From IMG/VR virus record IMGVR_UViG_3300037245_003904, positions 1 through 23,103 of that record: a stretch of DNA of 23,103 nt; one strand, given 5' to 3'. The first letter of the stretch is position 1; every line of letters starts with the position of its first letter. Below the pieces are notes generated by a model. It searched no databases. It was not told the DNA's origin and saw only the letters and a list, made by a program, of their open reading frames with translations. This document shows positions 13,489 through 23,103 of this stretch, piece by piece. A program made the translations under genes and the position numbers. The stretch is from a virus.

Positions 13489-14224
13489 ATTTCAGGAGTT
13501 GATGGGAGCTGTTCCCGATAAAGACAAGGCCGAGCTGGTAATCCTGCACAACGCAGCGGTCTCCTGCACGAATAAATACAAAGAGGATCCAACGGCCGCC
13601 AACGGTCGCGACTGGGACGATGCCAAGCGTCGCCTGCAGGATACGATCGACCGCCTCTGGTCTCGTTATGTCGAGCAGGAAGAGCGCTTCGACAATCGCA
13701 AGGCGGTTCTCGAGTATCTCAACGAAAACGGCTACAGCGTTTCCCAGGGCAAGCTCTATGCTGATGCTAAAAAAGGGTTGCTAAGGCTGCAGCCCGACAA
13801 GTCGGTGTTGATGTCGTCGGTCGAGGCCTATATCAAGGATCCGGAGTCCGGCCTGGTTAAGCATGCCGAGGTTGGCGCGGAGCAGGATAACGCCGAGCGG
13901 GCCGAACGGAAGTCGACCGCCGAATTAAATATTCTGGAAGGGAAGGCAACAAGACAAAAGTTCGATCTCGATCGGGAGATGGGCCGCTATCTTTTGCGGG
14001 AGGATTTCGAGCTCGAGCTGGCGTCCCGGGCTGCGGTCCTGGAGACCGGTTTTAAGCATCGGATCAAAACCGACATCTCCGAGTGGATCCAGGTCTGCAA
14101 GGGAAGTCAGGCACAACGGGCCGAGTTGCTCGGTCTGATCCTGTTGGCCGTCGATCAACAGCTCAACGAGTTCGCTACCACCGATAAGTTCCAGGTGATG
14201 TTTCTGGCCGAGGAGGTCGTCTGA
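13481..14224 (+). CDS. terminase small subunit-like protein, copy 2
   Basis: The product is 247 residues and a clear paralogue of the protein at 11419-12180. The helix-turn-helix (79-100, LNENGYSVSQGKLYADAK), the LQPDKSVLMSSVEAY block (103-117) and the QLNEFATTDKFQVMF tail (227-241) are the same or nearly so. The first 45 residues and the 133-160 linker are different. ATG 13481 is preferred, with GGAG six bases upstream, and overlaps the methyltransferase stop. The product ends in an ATGA overlap with the large terminase, so copy 2 is the likely canonical partner. The divergence suggests that copy 1 has specialised. Confidence 0.78.
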   Translation: MDRFQELMGAVPDKDKAELVILHNAAVSCTNKYKEDPTAANGRDWDDAKRRLQDTIDRLWSRYVEQEERFDNRKAVLEYLNENGYSVSQGKLYADAKKGLLRLQPDKSVLMSSVEAYIKDPESGLVKHAEVGAEQDNAERAERKSTAELNILEGKATRQKFDLDREMGRYLLREDFELELASRAAVLETGFKHRIKTDISEWIQVCKGSQAQRAELLGLILLAVDQQLNEFATTDKFQVMFLAEEVV

Positions 14225-16164
14225 TGAGCGATTCAGAGATTCCGCCTCTGTTTGACGATATCGATACGATCCGGATACCGGCTACCGCCACCTGGTTGCC
14301 TCGATCTCTTCGCCGTCGTCTGGAGCGGCAGGAGTGTATTTCCTACGGGGTCAAGTTCAGCAAGGCCGAGCGGAAGATATACCGCAAGCGGACCCCGTTG
14401 CCCCTTTCTCAGTGGTCCGAAAAGCATCGGGTTTTGACCATGAGCTCCTTGCCTGGTCCTTGGCGTAATGAGGCTACTCCCTACCTGCCCGGCATTATGG
14501 ATGCCTCGACCTTTCCGGGTGTTCAGGTCATTATACTTTGTAAGGGGCCACAAATGGGTGGTTCAGAGATCGCACACAACTTTGTCGGTGGTGCGATTGA
14601 TCAGCAGCCGGGTCCAGTCCTCTATGTTTATCCGGATGAGCAGACCACTAAAGATAACAGTCGCGACCGTATTTTGCCGATGATTAACAGCTCGCCCCGT
14701 CTGCGCAGTTATCTGACCGGGGTGCAGGATGATGCCTCGGTGATGCGGATCAGCCTCAAGCATATGCCGATCTACATGGCTTGGGCCACCTCTCCTAATC
14801 GTCTGGCCAATAAACCGATCCGTTACCTCATTCTCGATGAGATAGATAAGTATCCGGAAACCAGCGGCAAGCGAGAAACCAGCTCGATTGCCTTGGCTGA
14901 AATGCGCACTAATACTTTTAGCGATAGTCGAGTGATCTGGAAGATATCCACTCCGACCGTTGAGAGTGGCAATATATGGGTGGCTCTCAATAAAGAGGCT
15001 CAGGTGGTTTTTGATTTCTGGGTTGTCTGCCCTCATTGCGAGACTCTGCAGTTGATGGACTTTGACCGCATCAAGTGGCCTAAAGGTGAGCGGGATCCGG
15101 AGACGATCGAGGCTTCACGTCTGGCCGGATACGATTGCAGCGGCTGTCCTGACAGCTGGGATGATGAGGCTCGCGATCGGGCAGTTCGCAAAGGCTATTG
15201 GCGGGCCCGGGGTAGTCACCTGGAGTTGTTCGTCTACCTGAATGCCCACCGGCCGAAAAAGATCGGTTTCCATCTGCCGGCTTGGCTCAGTCGGTTTGTC
15301 TCGCTCTCCGAGATCGCTGCTGATTTCCTGCGGGGGGCTAAGGATAAAAAGCTGCTTAAAAAGTTCATGAACCAGCGCAAGGCCGAACCGTGGATCGATT
15401 ACGCCCAGGACCGCAAAGAGGATCTGATTCTTTCCTTGCGCAATATGCACCTGCCCCGCGGTATTGTCCCGTCCGGAGATGTCGCCGCCTTGACGATCGG
15501 CATCGATACGCAGGATGTCGGTTACTACTACCGGATCACCGCTTGGGGTTACGGTATGAACATGGGTGGCCATATGGTCGCCGAGGGTAAGGTCGAAAAT
15601 GAAGACGCGCTCGAGGAGGTACTCTACCGTGAGTATTGCAACACTGAGGGGGATATTTACATGGTGGTCGGTGGCTTTATCGACACCCAGGGCCATCGCG
15701 TCTCCGAGGTTTACGACTGGACCAGATTACATCAGAACATTCTGCCCTGTCAGGGCAAGTCGTCTAGGGGTGGGGCCGCAGTGAGCTGGAACCCGATCGA
15801 CTATTATCCCGGTACCAAAGTCAAGATTCCCGGCGGCTTGAACCTCTACAGCGTCGATACGATATTTTATAAAGACATGCTCTCGAGTAAGCTCGAGATC
15901 AAGCGCGACGATCCGGGTGCCTACCTCTTTCATAATGAGATCGATGAGGGTTACGCGGCTCAGATGTGTGTGGAGTATCGGGACGAAAAAGGGATCTGGC
16001 AGTGTCCGAAAAATAAAGACAACCATTACTGGGATGTCTCTGTCTATGACCTGGCTTATGCTCATTACCTGGGTATTCGTACATGGCCGATGCCGGATCC
16101 GGCTCAGCAGCAGGCGGCAGCCGGTGGTGGTCGCCGGGTGCGGAGTCAGGGGCTTACGGTGTAA
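14224..16164 (+). CDS. terminase large subunit (GpA family)
   Basis: This DNA-packaging motor and maturation nuclease has 646 residues, close to lambda gpA (641). The Walker A-type loop KGPQMGGSE is at 107-115, deviating from the classical P-loop as is normal in GpA. Walker B YLILDEID is at 201-208 with D205/E206, and a STPT coupling motif at 242-245. A zinc-like quartet CPHC (269-272) and CSGC (305-308) sits between the domains. The nuclease domain starts at GIDTQD (426-431), with FIDTQG (485-490) and WDVSVYDLAYAHY (603-615) giving further acidic residues. The C-terminal 20 residues are Gln/Ala-rich. The gene is coupled to the small subunit copy 2 by an ATGA overlap. Confidence 0.93.
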   Translation: MSDSEIPPLFDDIDTIRIPATATWLPRSLRRRLERQECISYGVKFSKAERKIYRKRTPLPLSQWSEKHRVLTMSSLPGPWRNEATPYLPGIMDASTFPGVQVIILCKGPQMGGSEIAHNFVGGAIDQQPGPVLYVYPDEQTTKDNSRDRILPMINSSPRLRSYLTGVQDDASVMRISLKHMPIYMAWATSPNRLANKPIRYLILDEIDKYPETSGKRETSSIALAEMRTNTFSDSRVIWKISTPTVESGNIWVALNKEAQVVFDFWVVCPHCETLQLMDFDRIKWPKGERDPETIEASRLAGYDCSGCPDSWDDEARDRAVRKGYWRARGSHLELFVYLNAHRPKKIGFHLPAWLSRFVSLSEIAADFLRGAKDKKLLKKFMNQRKAEPWIDYAQDRKEDLILSLRNMHLPRGIVPSGDVAALTIGIDTQDVGYYYRITAWGYGMNMGGHMVAEGKVENEDALEEVLYREYCNTEGDIYMVVGGFIDTQGHRVSEVYDWTRLHQNILPCQGKSSRGGAAVSWNPIDYYPGTKVKIPGGLNLYSVDTIFYKDMLSSKLEIKRDDPGAYLFHNEIDEGYAAQMCVEYRDEKGIWQCPKNKDNHYWDVSVYDLAYAHYLGIRTWPMPDPAQQQAAAGGGRRVRSQGLTV

Positions 16165-16283: not shown

Positions 16284-17183
16284 TCACAAAGAAGTAGTTT
16301 CGATGGTACTAATGACAACACCAGTTTCTATCACAGCTTCACTGAGAATTATATCCAAGTCGAATTCACTACTGGCAACGAAGTTCAAGACTGCATTATT
16401 GCCACGCAAACTTCTTATAGAGACTCTTGTTGCACATGCTTTGGATAGATACTTAATCATCTCATTTATTTCATCACTAGACCCTTTGATCTCTAGTTTG
16501 GCTCGAACTAAGTACAACGTATTCTCAGGGTACAAGTGTCCCTTATGGCGTAACTCTGGCTGTTTATTTTTGTAGTTAATATTTCCGATAGCCTTTTCAA
16601 TAGCATCAAACCGTTCAAGAATGTACTGGTCTTTCGTTCCAACGACAACCTCTTCCATGACCTGTGCTTGAACAGCACGATATATCGGATTGTCTGGTTT
16701 TTCATCACATAAAGCTTCTTCAACGGTCTCTTTCAAGCGTGGAATGAGATCTTGAGTACCCTGCATGTCGTTTTGATAAAACAGGGTCCGTTCATCAGAA
16801 ATATCAAAAGGGAGCTTAGTGCCATTTTCAGCAAGCGAAACCACCGGCTTTCTTTTGGCGTGACGAACCGCCAGTTCGTACATAACATTCGGATTCAGAC
16901 CAGTCAGGTTGGTGATGACCATGTCATCCTCAAGCAGATGCTCAAGAACCTGCTTGGTGATAGAGCCGGGCTTGGCAATTTCGTGAGCGACAAAGACCTC
17001 GAATCCCAGATCAGCCATAACCGGCTTTATGACAGAACGTATCAAGCCATCGGTGGCACGTCGGGTTGATGAATTATCATCCCCGATGGGCGTGACTACA
17101 AAGCAGCTTTTTTTCTTGGGGGCTTCTTCTGGTTCAGTCGTTGGTTGATCTTTTGCGGTAGTTTTCTTTTTAGGTGTGGTCAT
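16284..17183 (-). CDS. TIR/deoxyribosyltransferase-like accessory protein
   Basis: The product has 299 residues. After a basic, Lys/Thr-rich leader (1-26), residues 27-160 form a nucleotide-binding alpha/beta domain of the TIR/nucleoside deoxyribosyltransferase-like group. It has CFVVTPIG (27-34), EDDMVITNLTG (85-95) and NPNVMYELAVRHAKRKPVV (97-115), with E103 in the position of the catalytic glutamate. NAD or nucleotide cleavage is the likely activity. Residues 165-299 are of unknown fold, possibly a sensor or oligomerisation part. ATG 17183 is chosen because GGAGGGG directly precedes it; an upstream ATG at 17222 lacks this. It is the only minus-strand gene in the window and interrupts the packaging/head gene order, the pattern of a cargo gene. 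Confidence 0.72.
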   Translation of the reverse strand: MTTPKKKTTAKDQPTTEPEEAPKKKSCFVVTPIGDDNSSTRRATDGLIRSVIKPVMADLGFEVFVAHEIAKPGSITKQVLEHLLEDDMVITNLTGLNPNVMYELAVRHAKRKPVVSLAENGTKLPFDISDERTLFYQNDMQGTQDLIPRLKETVEEALCDEKPDNPIYRAVQAQVMEEVVVGTKDQYILERFDAIEKAIGNINYKNKQPELRHKGHLYPENTLYLVRAKLEIKGSSDEINEMIKYLSKACATRVSIRSLRGNNAVLNFVASSEFDLDIILSEAVIETGVVISTIETTSL

Positions 17184-17318
17184 GAGCCCCTCCGTGAGAA
17201 TCCGTTGGTAAGTGATGTCCACTGTTTTTAACGCAAGTAAGGAGATAATTCAACAAATGTCTTTGACACAGCATAAGGCCTTGAGCTGAAGCACTGATGA
17301 TACATATTTAAAATGCTC

Positions 17319-17927: not shown

Positions 17928-18146
17928 GTGGCTATAACTCTTGATCAAGCTCAGGCTCAGCTCGATAAGTTCATGCAAATGAGCCTCGATTTCGACTGCC
18001 AGTCCTACACTTCCACCCGTGGTGGTAACCGCCATGCCAAGGAGATGCCGACCCTCTCCGAAATCACCAAGCAAATCAATTACTGGAAAAAAGAAGTAGC
18101 CAGTCTCTCTGGAGTCTCCCGGGTTAATGCGGGGGCACCGCTATGA
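17928..18146 (+). CDS. head-tail joining protein (lambda W-like)
   Basis: The 72-residue product is close to lambda gpW (68) in size, and its place between terminase and portal genes is right. It begins with a helix (LDQAQAQLDKFMQMSL), then a short polar hairpin with TSTRGGNRHAKEM. A second helix (LSEITKQINYWKKEVASL) matches the gpW-like pattern of two helices joined by a beta turn. The protein completes the portal and links head to tail. GTG 17928 follows GGGGAG. Its stop overlaps the portal start (ATGA). Confidence 0.75.
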   Translation: MAITLDQAQAQLDKFMQMSLDFDCQSYTSTRGGNRHAKEMPTLSEITKQINYWKKEVASLSGVSRVNAGAPL

Positions 18147-19750
18147 GCGATAAGTCTGCAGCAGTTTCGATCAAGCCTTCCCTTCTGGATCGGGCGGTCT
18201 CTTACGTCTCTCCGGTTCGTGGCGCTCAGCGTATGTATGCCAAAGAAATACTGGCCATGCATGGCGGCTACACCGGTGCCGACAAAACCCGTCGCAGTCT
18301 CATGAATTGGTTTACCAATGGCGGCAGCGCCGATGCCGCTACTCTCTCCGACCTCCCTGCCCTGCGTGAGCATTCCAGTGATCTGATCCGCAACACGCCT
18401 CTGGGTGCCGGTGTTGTTGGCACGATGGTCACCAATGTTGTCGGTTCCGGACTCACGCTGCAATGCGCTATCGACCGTGGCCTTTTGAATATGACCGACG
18501 ACCAAGCCGATACCTGGGAGGATGACACTGAGCGTGAGTTCAATCTCTTTGCTCTCAATTGCGATCTGCGTCGCACTCTTAATTTTTACGACATGACAGA
18601 GCTTAATTTTCGGTCTGAGTTGGAAAAAGGCGATGTCTTCACTGTGATGTCCCATAAGAAACGGCCCGGCGATCTCTATGGCCTCAAGCTCTCCATGGTT
18701 GAGGCCGATCGTGTCTGTAATGAAAACGACGCCATGGATACCGCCGATCTCGCAGGTGGTATCCAGAGGGATGAGGATGGTGCTCCTGAGTTTGTTCACA
18801 TTCTAAAGCATCACCCGGGCAACGCCACCTACCAGACTAAGGAGTGGGACAAGGTTCGCGTTTTTGGTGAAGAGACCGGCCGCCGTAATGTCCTACACCA
18901 CTATTCAATGCTACGCCCTGATCAGTCCCGCGGGGTGCCTCTGCTTGCTCCGGTGATCGAGCCGCTCAAGCAGATCAGCCGCCTCACTGAATCCGAGTTG
19001 ATGGCTTCAGTTTTAGCCTCTCTTTATACCGTATTTATCAAAACCGAAAATGGCCAGGGGATCAATGGTCTCTCTGGTCCGCCGCAAGCCGGTCCGATCC
19101 AGCCTGGAGCACCCGCACTGGCCAAGCAAGCCCCGGCCAAAGACAAGCAGCCAATGGCTATGGGTAGTGGTCTGATCGTTGATCTGGATATTGGCGAGTC
19201 GGTTGAAACTTCCACCCCTGGTCGCCCGAATGGAGCATTCGAGCCGTTCTACATGGCGATCCTTAAAGAGATCAGCCTTGGGGTTGAGCTGCCGTTCGAG
19301 ATCGTCCTGAAGACATTTAATCGCAGTTATTCGGCCGGGCGTGGCGCAATCAATGAAGCCTGGCGTCTGTTCATTAAGCGTCGGAAAAAAGTCTCCCGAG
19401 GGTTTTGCGATCCGGTCTATGCCGCCTGGATGGACGAAGCTGTCGCTTCCGGTCGCCGCCCTGCCCCTGGTTACTTTGCCAATCCATTGATTCGCCAAGC
19501 GTACCTCGGGGCCAATTGGCATGGATCGGGCCGTGGACAGATCAACGAGCTGGTCGAAGCCAAAGCCGCCAAAGAGCGGAGCGATATGGGTATGACCAGT
19601 TTGAGTGAGGAGATCGCCGGGTACAGCGGTGGTGACTTCCTCTCAACCCATCGTCAGCGGACCAAGGAAGTTAAGCGCCGGCGTGAGGATGGATTGCAGG
19701 AACCGTTGAAGCAGCCGGAGTCAAATAAAAAGGAGCCTGTGAATGACTGA
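18143..19750 (+). CDS. portal protein (lambda B-like)
   Basis: This is the dodecameric portal through which DNA enters and leaves the head. It has 535 residues against 533 in lambda gpB. It shows the lambda-type portal landmarks: an N-terminal SYVSPVRGAQRMY, then a helical RNTPLGAGVVGTMVTNVVGSGL segment (18 or so residues from 92), a YSMLRPDQSRGVPLLAPVI region near 253-271, and SYSAGRGAINEAWRLF near 394-409. A Pro/Ala-rich insert with QAGPIQPGAPALAKQ lies at about 312-330. The last 40 residues are basic and charged. It overlaps both W and the protease gene, as expected in a tightly packed head operon. Confidence 0.92.
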   Translation: MSDKSAAVSIKPSLLDRAVSYVSPVRGAQRMYAKEILAMHGGYTGADKTRRSLMNWFTNGGSADAATLSDLPALREHSSDLIRNTPLGAGVVGTMVTNVVGSGLTLQCAIDRGLLNMTDDQADTWEDDTEREFNLFALNCDLRRTLNFYDMTELNFRSELEKGDVFTVMSHKKRPGDLYGLKLSMVEADRVCNENDAMDTADLAGGIQRDEDGAPEFVHILKHHPGNATYQTKEWDKVRVFGEETGRRNVLHHYSMLRPDQSRGVPLLAPVIEPLKQISRLTESELMASVLASLYTVFIKTENGQGINGLSGPPQAGPIQPGAPALAKQAPAKDKQPMAMGSGLIVDLDIGESVETSTPGRPNGAFEPFYMAILKEISLGVELPFEIVLKTFNRSYSAGRGAINEAWRLFIKRRKKVSRGFCDPVYAAWMDEAVASGRRPAPGYFANPLIRQAYLGANWHGSGRGQINELVEAKAAKERSDMGMTSLSEEIAGYSGGDFLSTHRQRTKEVKRRREDGLQEPLKQPESNKKEPVND

Positions 19751-21014
19751 GCATTTTAGAAGAACCGCCCTGCAGGCGGTTATGGCCGAGCGCTGGGCAA
19801 TCACTCAGGATGGCCTGCGCACCATCCTCGCCGTCGCCAATCGCGAAGGGGATGTTGAAGCGCTCAAGGCCAAGCTCGGCAAGGAGCTACCCGGTACCCG
19901 TAAGGTCGAGATGCGTGGCGATGTTGCCGTGATCCCGATCAGCGGGCCTATCTTTCGTTACGCCAATCTCTTTACCGAGTTTTCCGGAGCCACCTCCCTG
20001 GGGATGTTGTCGCTCGATTTCCAGAAGGCGCTCGAAGATGACGCGGTTCGTTCGGTTTTACTTTGGCCGGATAGCCCGGGTGGTCAGGTCAACGGCACCA
20101 ACGAGTTTGCCGATGCGGTCTATGCGGCCAACAAGATCAAGCCGGTGATGGCTTATGTCGGCGGCACCGCCGCCAGTGCCGGTTACTGGGCGATCAGCGG
20201 CTGTCGGGAAATCGTTGTCGACGATACCGCCTGCCTCGGCTCGATCGGTGTGTGCGCAACCTTCCAGGATGATAGCAAGCTGCAGGAGATGCGAGGTATC
20301 GAGTCGATCGAGATCGTCTCCACTGCCAGCCCGAAGAAACGTCCCGACCTGAAAACCGAAAAGGGTCGCGAGCAGTTCCTGGTTGAGCTCGATGCTCTGT
20401 GTGATGTCTTCATTGCCAAGGTCGCCAAGCATCGCGGCGTCTCCGAAGAGAAGGTCCGCAGCGAGTTCGGTCAGGGCGATGTCTTTATTGGCGAGCATGC
20501 GGTTAGTGCCGGTCTGGCCGATCGTACCGGCTCGTTTGAAGAAGTTATCGAGTATATGCAGAAGGAATTCAGCGGCAGTACCAGTTTCGGTATTGGCGCT
20601 CATCAATCACTAGAACGTTGTGGAGGTAAGACCATGGATATTAAAGAGTTGAAGGACAAGCACCCGGAGCTGCATGCCGAGGTCATCAAGGTAGGGCACA
20701 CGGCCGGTCACGCCGAAGGCCTCATCGCTGGAGCCGCCGCCGAAGGCCAGCGGGTCAAGGATGTCAACGCCGCCCTGATCCCCGGGCATGAAGAGTTGAT
20801 CGCCGGTCTGGCTGCCGACGGCAAAACCACCGGCGGCGAAGCTGCTCAGGCGGTGACGATGGCGGAGAACAATCTGCGTGAGACGAATCTCAAGAGCATC
20901 AAAAATGATGCTCCGAAGGCTCCGAATGTAGCCGAGCCTGGTGCCGAGGGTGCCGAGGCTAAGCAGGAGCAGGAAGATGTCTCCTGTATGGTCGCCGGGA
21001 TGAACGCATCCTGA
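19743..21014 (+). CDS. S49-type prohead protease with scaffold tail (lambda C-like)
   Basis: This 423-residue protein would be incorporated in the prohead, where it cleaves scaffold and portal components. Residues 58-270 form the S49/ClpP-like serine peptidase. DSPGG (110-114) supplies the oxyanion-type loop, GGTAASAGYW (140-149) carries the candidate nucleophile S145, and SPKK (196-199) the candidate general-base lysine. The C-terminal 125 residues are Glu/Ala-rich and helical, as in scaffold proteins. The size compares with lambda gpC (439). AAGGAG precedes ATG 19743, which overlaps the portal stop. An internal start inside this gene is listed separately. Confidence 0.9.
   Translation: MTEHFRRTALQAVMAERWAITQDGLRTILAVANREGDVEALKAKLGKELPGTRKVEMRGDVAVIPISGPIFRYANLFTEFSGATSLGMLSLDFQKALEDDAVRSVLLWPDSPGGQVNGTNEFADAVYAANKIKPVMAYVGGTAASAGYWAISGCREIVVDDTACLGSIGVCATFQDDSKLQEMRGIESIEIVSTASPKKRPDLKTEKGREQFLVELDALCDVFIAKVAKHRGVSEEKVRSEFGQGDVFIGEHAVSAGLADRTGSFEEVIEYMQKEFSGSTSFGIGAHQSLERCGGKTMDIKELKDKHPELHAEVIKVGHTAGHAEGLIAGAAAEGQRVKDVNAALIPGHEELIAGLAADGKTTGGEAAQAVTMAENNLRETNLKSIKNDAPKAPNVAEPGAEGAEAKQEQEDVSCMVAGMNAS
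20634..21014 (+). CDS. nested scaffold protein (lambda Nu3-like)
   Basis: An in-frame ATG at 20634 (codon 298 of the protease) follows GGAGG (20622-20626) at seven bases, and would give a 126-residue protein identical to the end of the protease. It is charged, helical and rich in Ala, Glu and Gly, the usual character of scaffolds. In lambda, Nu3 is made in the same way from inside gene C. The strong internal binding site, otherwise not needed, is the direct evidence. Confidence 0.72.
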   Translation: MDIKELKDKHPELHAEVIKVGHTAGHAEGLIAGAAAEGQRVKDVNAALIPGHEELIAGLAADGKTTGGEAAQAVTMAENNLRETNLKSIKNDAPKAPNVAEPGAEGAEAKQEQEDVSCMVAGMNAS

Positions 21015-21063: not shown

Positions 21064-21411
21064 ATGGATCTCGAAAGCTACACCCCTAAAAACCTGATCG
21101 CAGGTGACTTCCCCATCGCCGATGGCGATGGCACTATTTTGGCCGGGCAGAATCTGGCCGCTGGCACCGTGGTAGCCAAAGACAGCGGCAACGGCGACAA
21201 GCTGGTTGCGGTCGATTCAGCCCACGGCACTGCCTCGATTAACGATCCGTACGCTGTTTTGCCTGTGGCTATTGATGCATCCGGTGGTGACACCGTTGCA
21301 CCGCTCTACCTGGCTGGTGAGTTCAATGAGAACGCGCTGGTTTTCGGTGGGGCCGATACGATTGCCGATCATAAAGAAGCCTTGCGCGGGCTCTCTATTT
21401 TCACGAAATAA
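21064..21411 (+). CDS. head decoration protein (lambda D-like)
   Basis: The 115-residue protein would bind the expanded capsid surface and stabilise it (lambda gpD has 110). The features are a flexible N-terminus, then IADGDGTILAGQNLAAGTVV, then a VLPVAIDASGGD beta segment, and LYLAGEFNENALVF near the end. ATG 21064 follows AGGAGG. It lies exactly between protease/scaffold and major capsid, as in lambda. Confidence 0.87.
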   Translation: MDLESYTPKNLIAGDFPIADGDGTILAGQNLAAGTVVAKDSGNGDKLVAVDSAHGTASINDPYAVLPVAIDASGGDTVAPLYLAGEFNENALVFGGADTIADHKEALRGLSIFTK

Positions 21412-21414
21412 ACT

Positions 21415-21437
21415 GTGCCGGCCTTAAATGCCGGCAC
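21415..21437 (+). terminator. intergenic hairpin between decoration and capsid genes
   Basis: GTGCCGGC (21415-21422) and GCCGGCAC (21430-21437) form a perfect eight-base stem with a seven-base loop, just after the decoration stop. There is no T run, so it is more likely an RNA-stability or partial attenuation element adjusting the two protein levels than a full terminator. Confidence 0.5.
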
Positions 21438-21460
21438 CTATTAATGGAGGCTAGAAAGCC

Positions 21461-22642
21461 ATGAAAAAGTTTGCTCTGTTTTCTTCTTTGCTACTGCTGG
21501 TTTGCGTCGGTCTGGCGTTTATCGGCCTGCCTGTAGCAGCCGACACTCTGCCGGTGATCGATAGCCTGGGTAATACCGGGAATACGTCGCCAGCGCTGTG
21601 GGGTACCGCCAGCGTCAGCCTGTTTCAGTCACGCACCATGATGAAGGCTATCGATGAGCGGAAAAAAGTGACCACCTTCTTGCTACGTACCTTTTTCCCT
21701 GGTGAAGAGGTTTTTGGGACCAAGGCGGTTGATATTGAAACGATTGTCGGGAAGCTGAAATTGGCCCCTTTTGTTTCGCCGGTTAAAAAAGGCAAGCTGG
21801 TTGAAGCCGAAGGTCGCGCTATGAAGACCTTCGAGCCGCCCTATATCAAGCCGCTTGGGCATCTTGAGCCTGCTGATCTGATCCCGCCGGCTACAGGTGA
21901 AACGATCTATGAAGGTGGCAAAAATCACGGCCAGCGACTAGCTGAGAAGACCGGGGGAATTCTCGCCAAGCTTGATGATCAGATTACCGCCCGTGAGGAG
22001 TGGATGGCTGCTCAGGCGCTCGATACCGGCATCGTTATTGTCAAGGGTGAAGGCATCGATACCGCTGTCGATTTCGGCATGCCCGCTTCTCACAAGGTGA
22101 CTCTGGTCGGTACTGATCTCTGGACCGATAAGGACAATAGTGATCCGGGAGCTGACCTGGTGGCCTGGGCTGAGCTCAATGCCAAAGACTCCGGGATTAT
22201 CTCGAATGTTGCGGTGATGGGGACCGACGCTTGTCTCGCCTTCGGCGCTCATCCTCTGGTTAAGGAAAAGCTCGACAATCGTGCCATTGAGCAGGGCCGG
22301 ATCAAGCCGGAACTGCTGCCGGAAGGTGTCACCTTCTACGGCACCTATCGTGATGTTGGCGTCTTTATCGATATCTACACCTACCAGTCCTGGTATGTCG
22401 ATGACAATGGTGATGATCAGTCGTTTGTTCCGGTCGACAAGGTCTGGCTCGGTAGCAACAAAACCAAGAACAAGAAACTCTACGGCATGATCCAGGACCT
22501 TAAGGCTGGCAACTTCGCCGTTAAGCGTTTCCCGAAGAGCTGGGAACAGGAAGATCCTTCCATGCGTTTTATCCTGCTTCAGTCGGCTCCGCTGCCGGCG
22601 TTGCTGCAGCCTGCCGCATTCGTCTCGGCCAAGGTCGTTTAA
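21461..22642 (+). CDS. major capsid protein (lambda E-like) with signal-peptide-like N-terminus
   Basis: The HK97-fold shell protein, 393 residues (lambda gpE has 341). From about residue 55 it follows the gpE pattern: TTFLLRTFFPGEEVF near 71-85, FVSPVKKGK, PPYIKPLGHLEPADL, the helical QITAREEWMAAQAL region, and the C-terminal RFPKSWEQEDPSMRF and LLQSAPLPALLQP signatures. The first 27 residues look like a Sec signal peptide: MKKF, a hydrophobic core at 5-23, and an A-x-A-like VAA before D28. GGAGG at 21446-21450 sets ATG 21461. The later in-frame ATGs (codons 60, 61) would give a lambda-sized protein but have no ribosome-binding site. Capsid proteins are cytoplasmic, so this leader is odd. 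Confidence 0.88.
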   Translation: MKKFALFSSLLLLVCVGLAFIGLPVAADTLPVIDSLGNTGNTSPALWGTASVSLFQSRTMMKAIDERKKVTTFLLRTFFPGEEVFGTKAVDIETIVGKLKLAPFVSPVKKGKLVEAEGRAMKTFEPPYIKPLGHLEPADLIPPATGETIYEGGKNHGQRLAEKTGGILAKLDDQITAREEWMAAQALDTGIVIVKGEGIDTAVDFGMPASHKVTLVGTDLWTDKDNSDPGADLVAWAELNAKDSGIISNVAVMGTDACLAFGAHPLVKEKLDNRAIEQGRIKPELLPEGVTFYGTYRDVGVFIDIYTYQSWYVDDNGDDQSFVPVDKVWLGSNKTKNKKLYGMIQDLKAGNFAVKRFPKSWEQEDPSMRFILLQSAPLPALLQPAAFVSAKVV

Positions 22643-22703: not shown

Positions 22704-23103
22704 GTGAAAATCGTAGCCCTTGAAAGTATCAAGTATAAAAAGAAATGGCGGGTGCCAGACACCGATACGGCTGTCTTCACTGTCGACAAGAAAGATGAAA
22801 AACTCGCCAAGGATCTGATCGCAGCCGGCAAGGCCTGTCTGCCTCAAACCTTGGAGCAGTTGGGCAAGTCTTCTGATCAAAGCAGCGCCGCCCAGGTTGT
22901 CGCCAATGCAACCGCCGAAGCGAAGAGGCTTGTGGCTGAGGCTCAGACAGCAGTCGTCCAGCTCAAGTCAGCTGCTCAGACGGAAGTCGACCAGCTCAAG
23001 TCTGATGCCCAGACGGAAGTCAGCCAGCTCAAGTCTGATGCCCAGACGGAAGTCAGCCAGCTCAAGTCTGATGCCCAGACGGAAGTCAGCCAGCTCAAGT
23101 CTG
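22704..23103 (+). CDS. coiled-coil repeat protein, partial at right edge
   Basis: An open frame from GTG 22704 (GAGGTAAC upstream) runs off the window. Residues 1-45 form a small globular-like domain (MKIVALESIKYKKKWRVP) followed by a polar linker. From residue 80 an 11-residue unit, AQTEVSQLKSD with early variants, repeats five times to the edge. Eleven-residue periodicity predicts a hendecad coiled coil. The position after the capsid gene is that of a lambda FI-like DNA-packaging accessory protein, but no sequence evidence supports that name. Confidence 0.68.
   Translation, partial: MKIVALESIKYKKKWRVPDTDTAVFTVDKKDEKLAKDLIAAGKACLPQTLEQLGKSSDQSSAAQVVANATAEAKRLVAEAQTAVVQLKSAAQTEVDQLKSDAQTEVSQLKSDAQTEVSQLKSDAQTEVSQLKS
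22941..23103 (+). repeat. 33-base tandem repeat, five copies
   Basis: Units start at 22941, 22974, 23007, 23040 and 23073 (the last cut after 31 bases). Copies three to five are identical as far as seen, while the first two differ by several substitutions. The array is in frame, so copy number can change without a frameshift. It extends beyond the window. Confidence 0.92.

Follow-up and report, generated by a model that had tools for sequence, protein, structure and literature searches.

A Sec-type leader recurring on three families of phage major capsid protein may tether nascent capsid subunits to the inner membrane

Tailed-phage capsids are usually pictured as cytoplasmic assemblies, a view with which a Sec-type signal on the main shell protein is at odds. 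The present locus raises exactly this question. The window, i.e., the whole 23,103-nt stretch of viral DNA analysed here (IMG/VR record IMGVR_UViG_3300037245_003904), carries a major capsid protein (MCP) ORF at 21461-22642 which encodes a 393-aa protein of the lambda gpE type with a signal-peptide-like N-terminus. Is this leader translated, is it a signal peptide, and what could it do for a protein that builds a shell? The head region contains the following features:

14224-16164, plus strand: terminase large subunit gpA (PF05876, PF20454)
18143-19750, plus strand: lambda-family portal protein (PF05136)
19743-21014, plus strand: S49 head maturation protease with a C-terminal scaffold-like region (PF01343)
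21064-21411, plus strand: lambda gpD-like head decoration protein (PF02924)
21415-21437, plus strand: inverted repeat with perfect 8-bp arms, GTGCCGGC-CTTAAAT-GCCGGCAC, lying downstream of the decoration gene and upstream of the MCP ribosome-binding site, read from the sequence
21446-21450, plus strand: MCP Shine-Dalgarno (SD) sequence GGAGG, read from the sequence
21461-21469, plus strand: n-region of the predicted signal peptide, MKK, read from the sequence (net positive in 62/62 leaders)
21470-21523, plus strand: hydrophobic core, residues 4-21, a predicted helix (AlphaFold2, KD14)
21524-21541, plus strand: c-region GLPVAA with a signal-peptidase-I-type site, VAA↓D, predicted cut 27/28 (AxA-type comparison)
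21542-21610, plus strand: net-acidic disordered linker, residues 28-50, with the start of the patch SPALWGTASVSL (pLDDT, alignments)
21611-22642, plus strand: gpE-type MCP body with the HK97 fold (PF03864, phrog_29, Foldseek)

Three neighbouring elements were noted in passing. The 8-bp hairpin at 21415-21437 has no T-run on its 3′ side in the window sequence, and mRNA processing is possibly one of its roles. A 312-aa ORF on the minus strand between terminase and portal (16284-17222) matched the PADLOC TIR effector model (E 1.2e-9) and no Pfam family; it is probably a moron and perhaps a phage-borne defence gene. At 22936-23103 on the plus strand, the gene that follows the MCP holds five in-frame 33-nt repeats (DAQTEVSQLKS), which run off the contig end.

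The MCP body was compared with known capsid proteins by sequence and by predicted structure. The Pfam family Phage_cap_E (PF03864) matched MCP residues 58-392 (profile positions 3-329, E 1.1e-70), phrog_29 also matched the body, and residue 2 of lambda gpE fell on MCP residue 53 in the alignment, leaving ~50 extra residues at the N-terminus. An AlphaFold2 model made with a 54-sequence alignment gave a confident HK97-fold body, a lone helix over residues 4-21 (pLDDT ~62-73) and disorder over residues 25-50 (pLDDT <50), and in Foldseek this model matched the capsids of YSD1, Chi and lambda with E-values of 1e-22 to 1e-28. Judged by its sequence and predicted fold, the body is clearly a member of the lambda gpE family. 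The usual start of gpE at the N-arm, without any extension, which family membership does not demand, is however not seen in the window MCP, whose extra ~50 residues have an SD sequence of their own.

This GGAGG (21446-21450) lies 10 nt upstream of the leader ATG at 21461. Residues 1-28 (21461-21544) read MKKFALFSSLLLLVCVGLAFIGLPVAAD, and the layout of the extra N-terminus is MKK, a hydrophobic helix, VAA↓D and then the disordered linker; residues 4-23, which follow the positive MKK, contain no acidic residue, and the KD14 of the hydrophobic core was 3.0. The sequence thus matches the earlier description of an SD-backed start at MKKF, a hydrophobic core and VAA before Asp. Most gpE proteins begin near the equivalent of residues 50-61, as would be expected if the start had been mis-annotated, the leader being untranslated 5′ sequence and synthesis beginning at about residue 50-61. 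Inspection of the window MCP, however, found no SD in front of any internal start codon up to Met60/61, nearly all leader carriers have an SD at the leader start, and the leader codons evolve in a protein-like way. A misplaced start was rejected on the missing internal SD, the conserved leader and this codon evolution, and we consider it extremely improbable. As for the alternative start proposed at Met60/61, its lack of an SD held true, but the equivalent start in leaderless relatives lies at about residue 50.

Signal-peptide anatomy was scored by simple rules in 62 distinct leaders of three MCP families. A net-positive n-region and a hydrophobic core were found in all 62, an AxA-type site in 56 (VAA↓D in the window), and the net charge of the 15 residues after the cut was ≤0 in 58. 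When the residues after the core were shuffled 500 times, 41.8 AxA-type sites were obtained on average and 50 at most; the excess over composition is real but moderate. No good cleavage site is present in the leaders of L026 and L356, and that of L039 is only weak. None of the 62 contained a lipobox with Cys or a twin-arginine motif, by which a lipoprotein or Tat signal was ruled out. A stricter homemade rule accepted 27/30 leader-bearing gpE MCPs, 0/185 leaderless ones and 9/1306 other ORFs of the same contigs, a contrast that does not represent so many independent events, the leaders being homologous. The match of the leaders to signal peptides is well beyond chance.

Beyond the predicted cut, ~20-30 residues remain in most gpE and gpT leaders and end in a short conserved patch (SPALWGTASVSL in the window, PLLGxxG in its gpE relatives, GxGGMIVN or similar in gpT), and the cut predicted for several GP7 phages (AMA↓) lies a few residues upstream of the leaderless N-terminus. 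An M13-like two-helix hairpin was considered and rejected, this second patch being too short and weak in the window. As far as sequence can tell, it is well supported that the ~27-residue leader is a real Sec-type signal peptide.

For the comparison with relatives, IMG/VR and GTDB contig scans yielded 214 distinct gpE-type MCPs, whose starts were picked by SD strength. These starts fell into two classes, 6-12 or 48-64 residues upstream of a fixed anchor. At least 30 residues preceded the anchor in 30 rows, which include a truncated contig end (L076), an apparent frameshift (L003) and a shorter hydrophobic extension (L356); of the 28 full-length gpE leaders read, 27 have an SD immediately ahead of their start. 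In L003 the leader, upstream of 2923, appears to be interrupted by a one-base frame shift just after the SD and ATG, probably an assembly error. The closest relatives (69-73% identity) are Desulfuromonadales-type MAGs, and the nearest two, a Geopsychrobacter MAG (L292, 73%) and a Deltaproteobacteria MAG (L293, 69%), retain the leader, as the initial annotation had proposed to check. It had also named relatives without the leader and with a shifted start as evidence against it; such relatives exist, but they are distant and not close ones, and they do not refute the leader because the close relatives keep it.

In leaderless relatives the body begins at the equivalent of about residue 50, as in M-SIDIFDTRTM, and an SD precedes each of these starts directly. 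No separate leader gene was found upstream in the leaderless phages, and the leader is cleanly absent. In two leaderless contigs (L090:4083-4481 and L295:1241-1645) the gene after the MCP encodes a 133-135-aa protein with its own signal peptide. A separate signal-peptide ORF acting in trans was rejected as a general replacement, since the other leaderless kin have none.

Pairwise comparison gave leader dN/dS values of mostly 0.1-0.6, against ~0.01-0.2 in the body, and 0.73 in one pair with very few differences, while the dS of the leader was close to that of the body. It follows that the leader is translated and selected, and it is under purifying selection. A quick tree of the gpE body, built without the leader columns from 27 sequences with and 60 without a leader, needed 12 leader-state changes, at least 9 of them forced by well-supported branches; this count, like those from the quick gpT and GP7 trees below, pools gains with losses. 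The leaderless L083 and the leader-bearing L011 are 79% identical over the body, and L083 groups with another carrier, L298. As such close relatives manage without it, the leader is not essential for gpE assembly in general. A recent gene fusion, one of the meanings first suggested for the leader, was upheld only in part: the leader is modular, sits at the ancestral start codon and has often been gained or lost, but the fusion is not recent in the window lineage because the window, L292, L293 and L343 all carry it.

The occurrence of the leader on other proteins was examined with a profile (A3) made from 21 leaders and run over 277 Desulfuromonadia genomes. The best 15 hits were all MCPs (PF03864, PF10124 and PF20911), and lower hits were mostly ordinary exported proteins; some of the gpE MCPs found in this way were too divergent for the window MCP query at 1e-15. 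Leader carriers of the Mu gpT family (PF10124) were present among the best hits (L436, L437, L440 and L467, with L448 lower down), a GP7 (PF20911) carrier was also hit (L438), and in the gpT and GP7 carriers the MCP domain starts right after the leader. Scans with gpT and GP7 members found leaders in 25/75 distinct gpT and 9/64 distinct GP7 sequences, fractions that are not prevalences, as the queries carried leaders themselves. At least 8 leader-state changes were counted in the gpT tree and at least 5 in the GP7 tree. The gpT junction is again the ancestral start, MIVNAS or MLVNKA in leaderless proteins versus ...GGMIVNAS in the leader form. Among the readable gpT MCPs from Desulfuromonadia, the leader is present in at least six and absent from at least two; it is missing from every readable HK97 gp5-type MCP of these hosts, which have an N-terminal domain of their own or are fused to a protease. 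A further Desulfuromonadia locus, L442:877-1155, encodes a leader-bearing gpE-like MCP; one of its bases is ambiguous, and the frame seems to break downstream of the leader.

Broad surveys outside Desulfuromonadia used a wider leader profile (A4), which missed a known carrier (G001), and matched 1/274 in Gammaproteobacteria, 1/150 in the class of L299 (the seed itself) and 1/297 in a phylum sample, with no new MCP. Because of the missed carrier, absence outside Desulfuromonadia is weak evidence, and the A3 search is the sounder one. Restriction of the leader to Desulfuromonadia hosts is hence described as a tendency, in a data set that consists mostly of MAGs and viral contigs and in which several gpT and GP7 leader carriers are IMG records. 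The like leaders on three MCP families, with at least 22 gain or loss events, point to a recurrent, host-linked role.

The diversity of the leader sequences, their faster evolution than the body, their frequent flips between presence and absence and the few leaders without a good cleavage site would fit an uncleaved membrane anchor, or a captured signal sequence that is tolerated without a selected role in head assembly. Such a reading is unlikely, as AxA-type sites exceed what composition gives (56/62 against the shuffle mean of 41.8 and maximum of 50), the leader codons are under purifying selection, and the leader recurs in three MCP families, MCPs alone making up the best HMM hits.

The initial annotation had further offered a delta-like domain cut by the prohead protease, i.e., a cytoplasmic hydrophobic assembly domain that sits in the prohead, aids scaffolding and is removed by the S49 maturation protease. 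The leader does occupy the position of the HK97 delta domain, directly before the N-arm, and most leader phages have an S49 (SppA-like) protease, a family related to signal peptide peptidase. However, the leaders of L014, L299 and L427 accompany unrelated Mu-I-type proteases (phrog_976 in L014, homologues in the other two), and this occurrence with two unrelated protease types weakens the idea. Leaders are also found on gpT and GP7 MCPs, their anatomy is Sec-like with a signal-peptidase-I-type c-region and not that of a coiled coil, and protease and scaffold are unchanged in close leaderless relatives. Removal by the prohead protease thus became less likely, and we hold this alternative to be unlikely. 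The common anatomy across MCP families, together with the two protease types, points instead to one host peptidase, signal peptidase I.

A textbook export signal, followed by an export-compatible start of the mature part, could also mean that a portion of the MCP really reaches the periplasm or envelope and serves there in some non-virion capacity, and that the rest escapes the leader and builds heads. Such export would compete with capsid formation, as the six host genomes checked carry one gpE-type MCP gene apiece and the window has no SD-backed internal start; we regard it as quite unlikely. With a single gene in each of these genomes, the leader-bearing protein must build the shell. Since full export would leave no shell, transient membrane engagement with cytoplasmic folding is proposed, and cytoplasmic retention has to be assumed because a signal peptide of the typical kind would direct the body into the periplasm.

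The leader is read in frame from an SD, is under selection, has Sec/SPase-I-like anatomy, persists in kin and is modular across three MCP families. The best explanation, to which we give a probability of about 0.5, is that it acts as a cleavable Sec-type signal with a linker, a swappable module which tethers the MCP to the membrane for head nucleation. The first ~27 residues and a short linker would have been placed before the ancestral MCP start codon, chiefly by Desulfuromonadia phages. The nascent MCP would be targeted to the inner-membrane Sec/YidC machinery, where the n/h/c region would insert into the membrane, and the gpE body would fold on the cytoplasmic side and hence not be exported. 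Capsid subunits would in this way be gathered at the membrane, where the head would be nucleated, and cleavage at VAA↓D by the host signal peptidase I would free them, leaving an N-terminus near the one at which leaderless relatives begin. The leader may thus be a transient inner-membrane tether of the nascent MCP before signal-peptidase cleavage; membrane engagement, cleavage, cytoplasmic retention of the body and a benefit to head assembly are parts that we infer. No other head protein of the window phage is known here as membrane-bound. Of the three meanings first put forward for the leader, membrane-associated head assembly would be the best mechanistic reading.

The results suggest that some phages begin head building at the bacterial inner membrane. 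A wider claim, that many tailed phages share a portable MCP signal peptide, membrane-sited assembly and host signal peptidase I as maturation protease, is tentative and falls somewhat short of even odds. If real, the leader would link the building of phage heads with the Sec pathway and signal peptidase I, and annotators would be warned against trimming such starts or labelling such MCPs as secreted.

Among known systems, the lambda gpE family (lambda, N15, YSD1/Chi and Vibrio XM1) has the same body by sequence and predicted fold, and the gpD, S49 protease, portal and gpA terminase genes of the window stand in lambda order. The named gpE members start at the equivalent of about residue 46-57, and among the matches listed none aligns to the leader: in these alignments to named phages, the first aligned query residue was never below 46 for gpE, 41 for gpT or 38 for GP7. 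A search of the open-access literature brought up no account of Sec leaders on the MCPs of tailed phages. The HK97 gp5 delta domain and the T4 gp23 propeptide are likewise N-terminal extensions of HK97-fold MCPs that may be removed. They are larger, cytoplasmic scaffolding domains cut by a phage protease, whereas the window leader is short and Sec-like. M13 procoat has a positive n-region, a hydrophobic core, an AxA site and an acidic segment, and its mature coat stays in the membrane. The likeness is that of a major coat protein with these four elements, but M13 belongs to an unrelated phage group with another fold and has a full second transmembrane helix, in place of which the window leader has no more than a short hydrophobic patch. 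In nucleus-forming phages the cell membrane is the site of capsid assembly (PMC9067925), and a precedent is given by T4, whose proheads are initiated on the inner membrane through gp20/gp40/YidC and come off it after cleavage (PMC9958956). The window leader, if real, would offer a testable case of membrane-sited capsid assembly beyond these two; the membrane-started head and the release by cleavage are alike in T4, which however uses its portal protein and a phage chaperone and not a signal peptide on the MCP.
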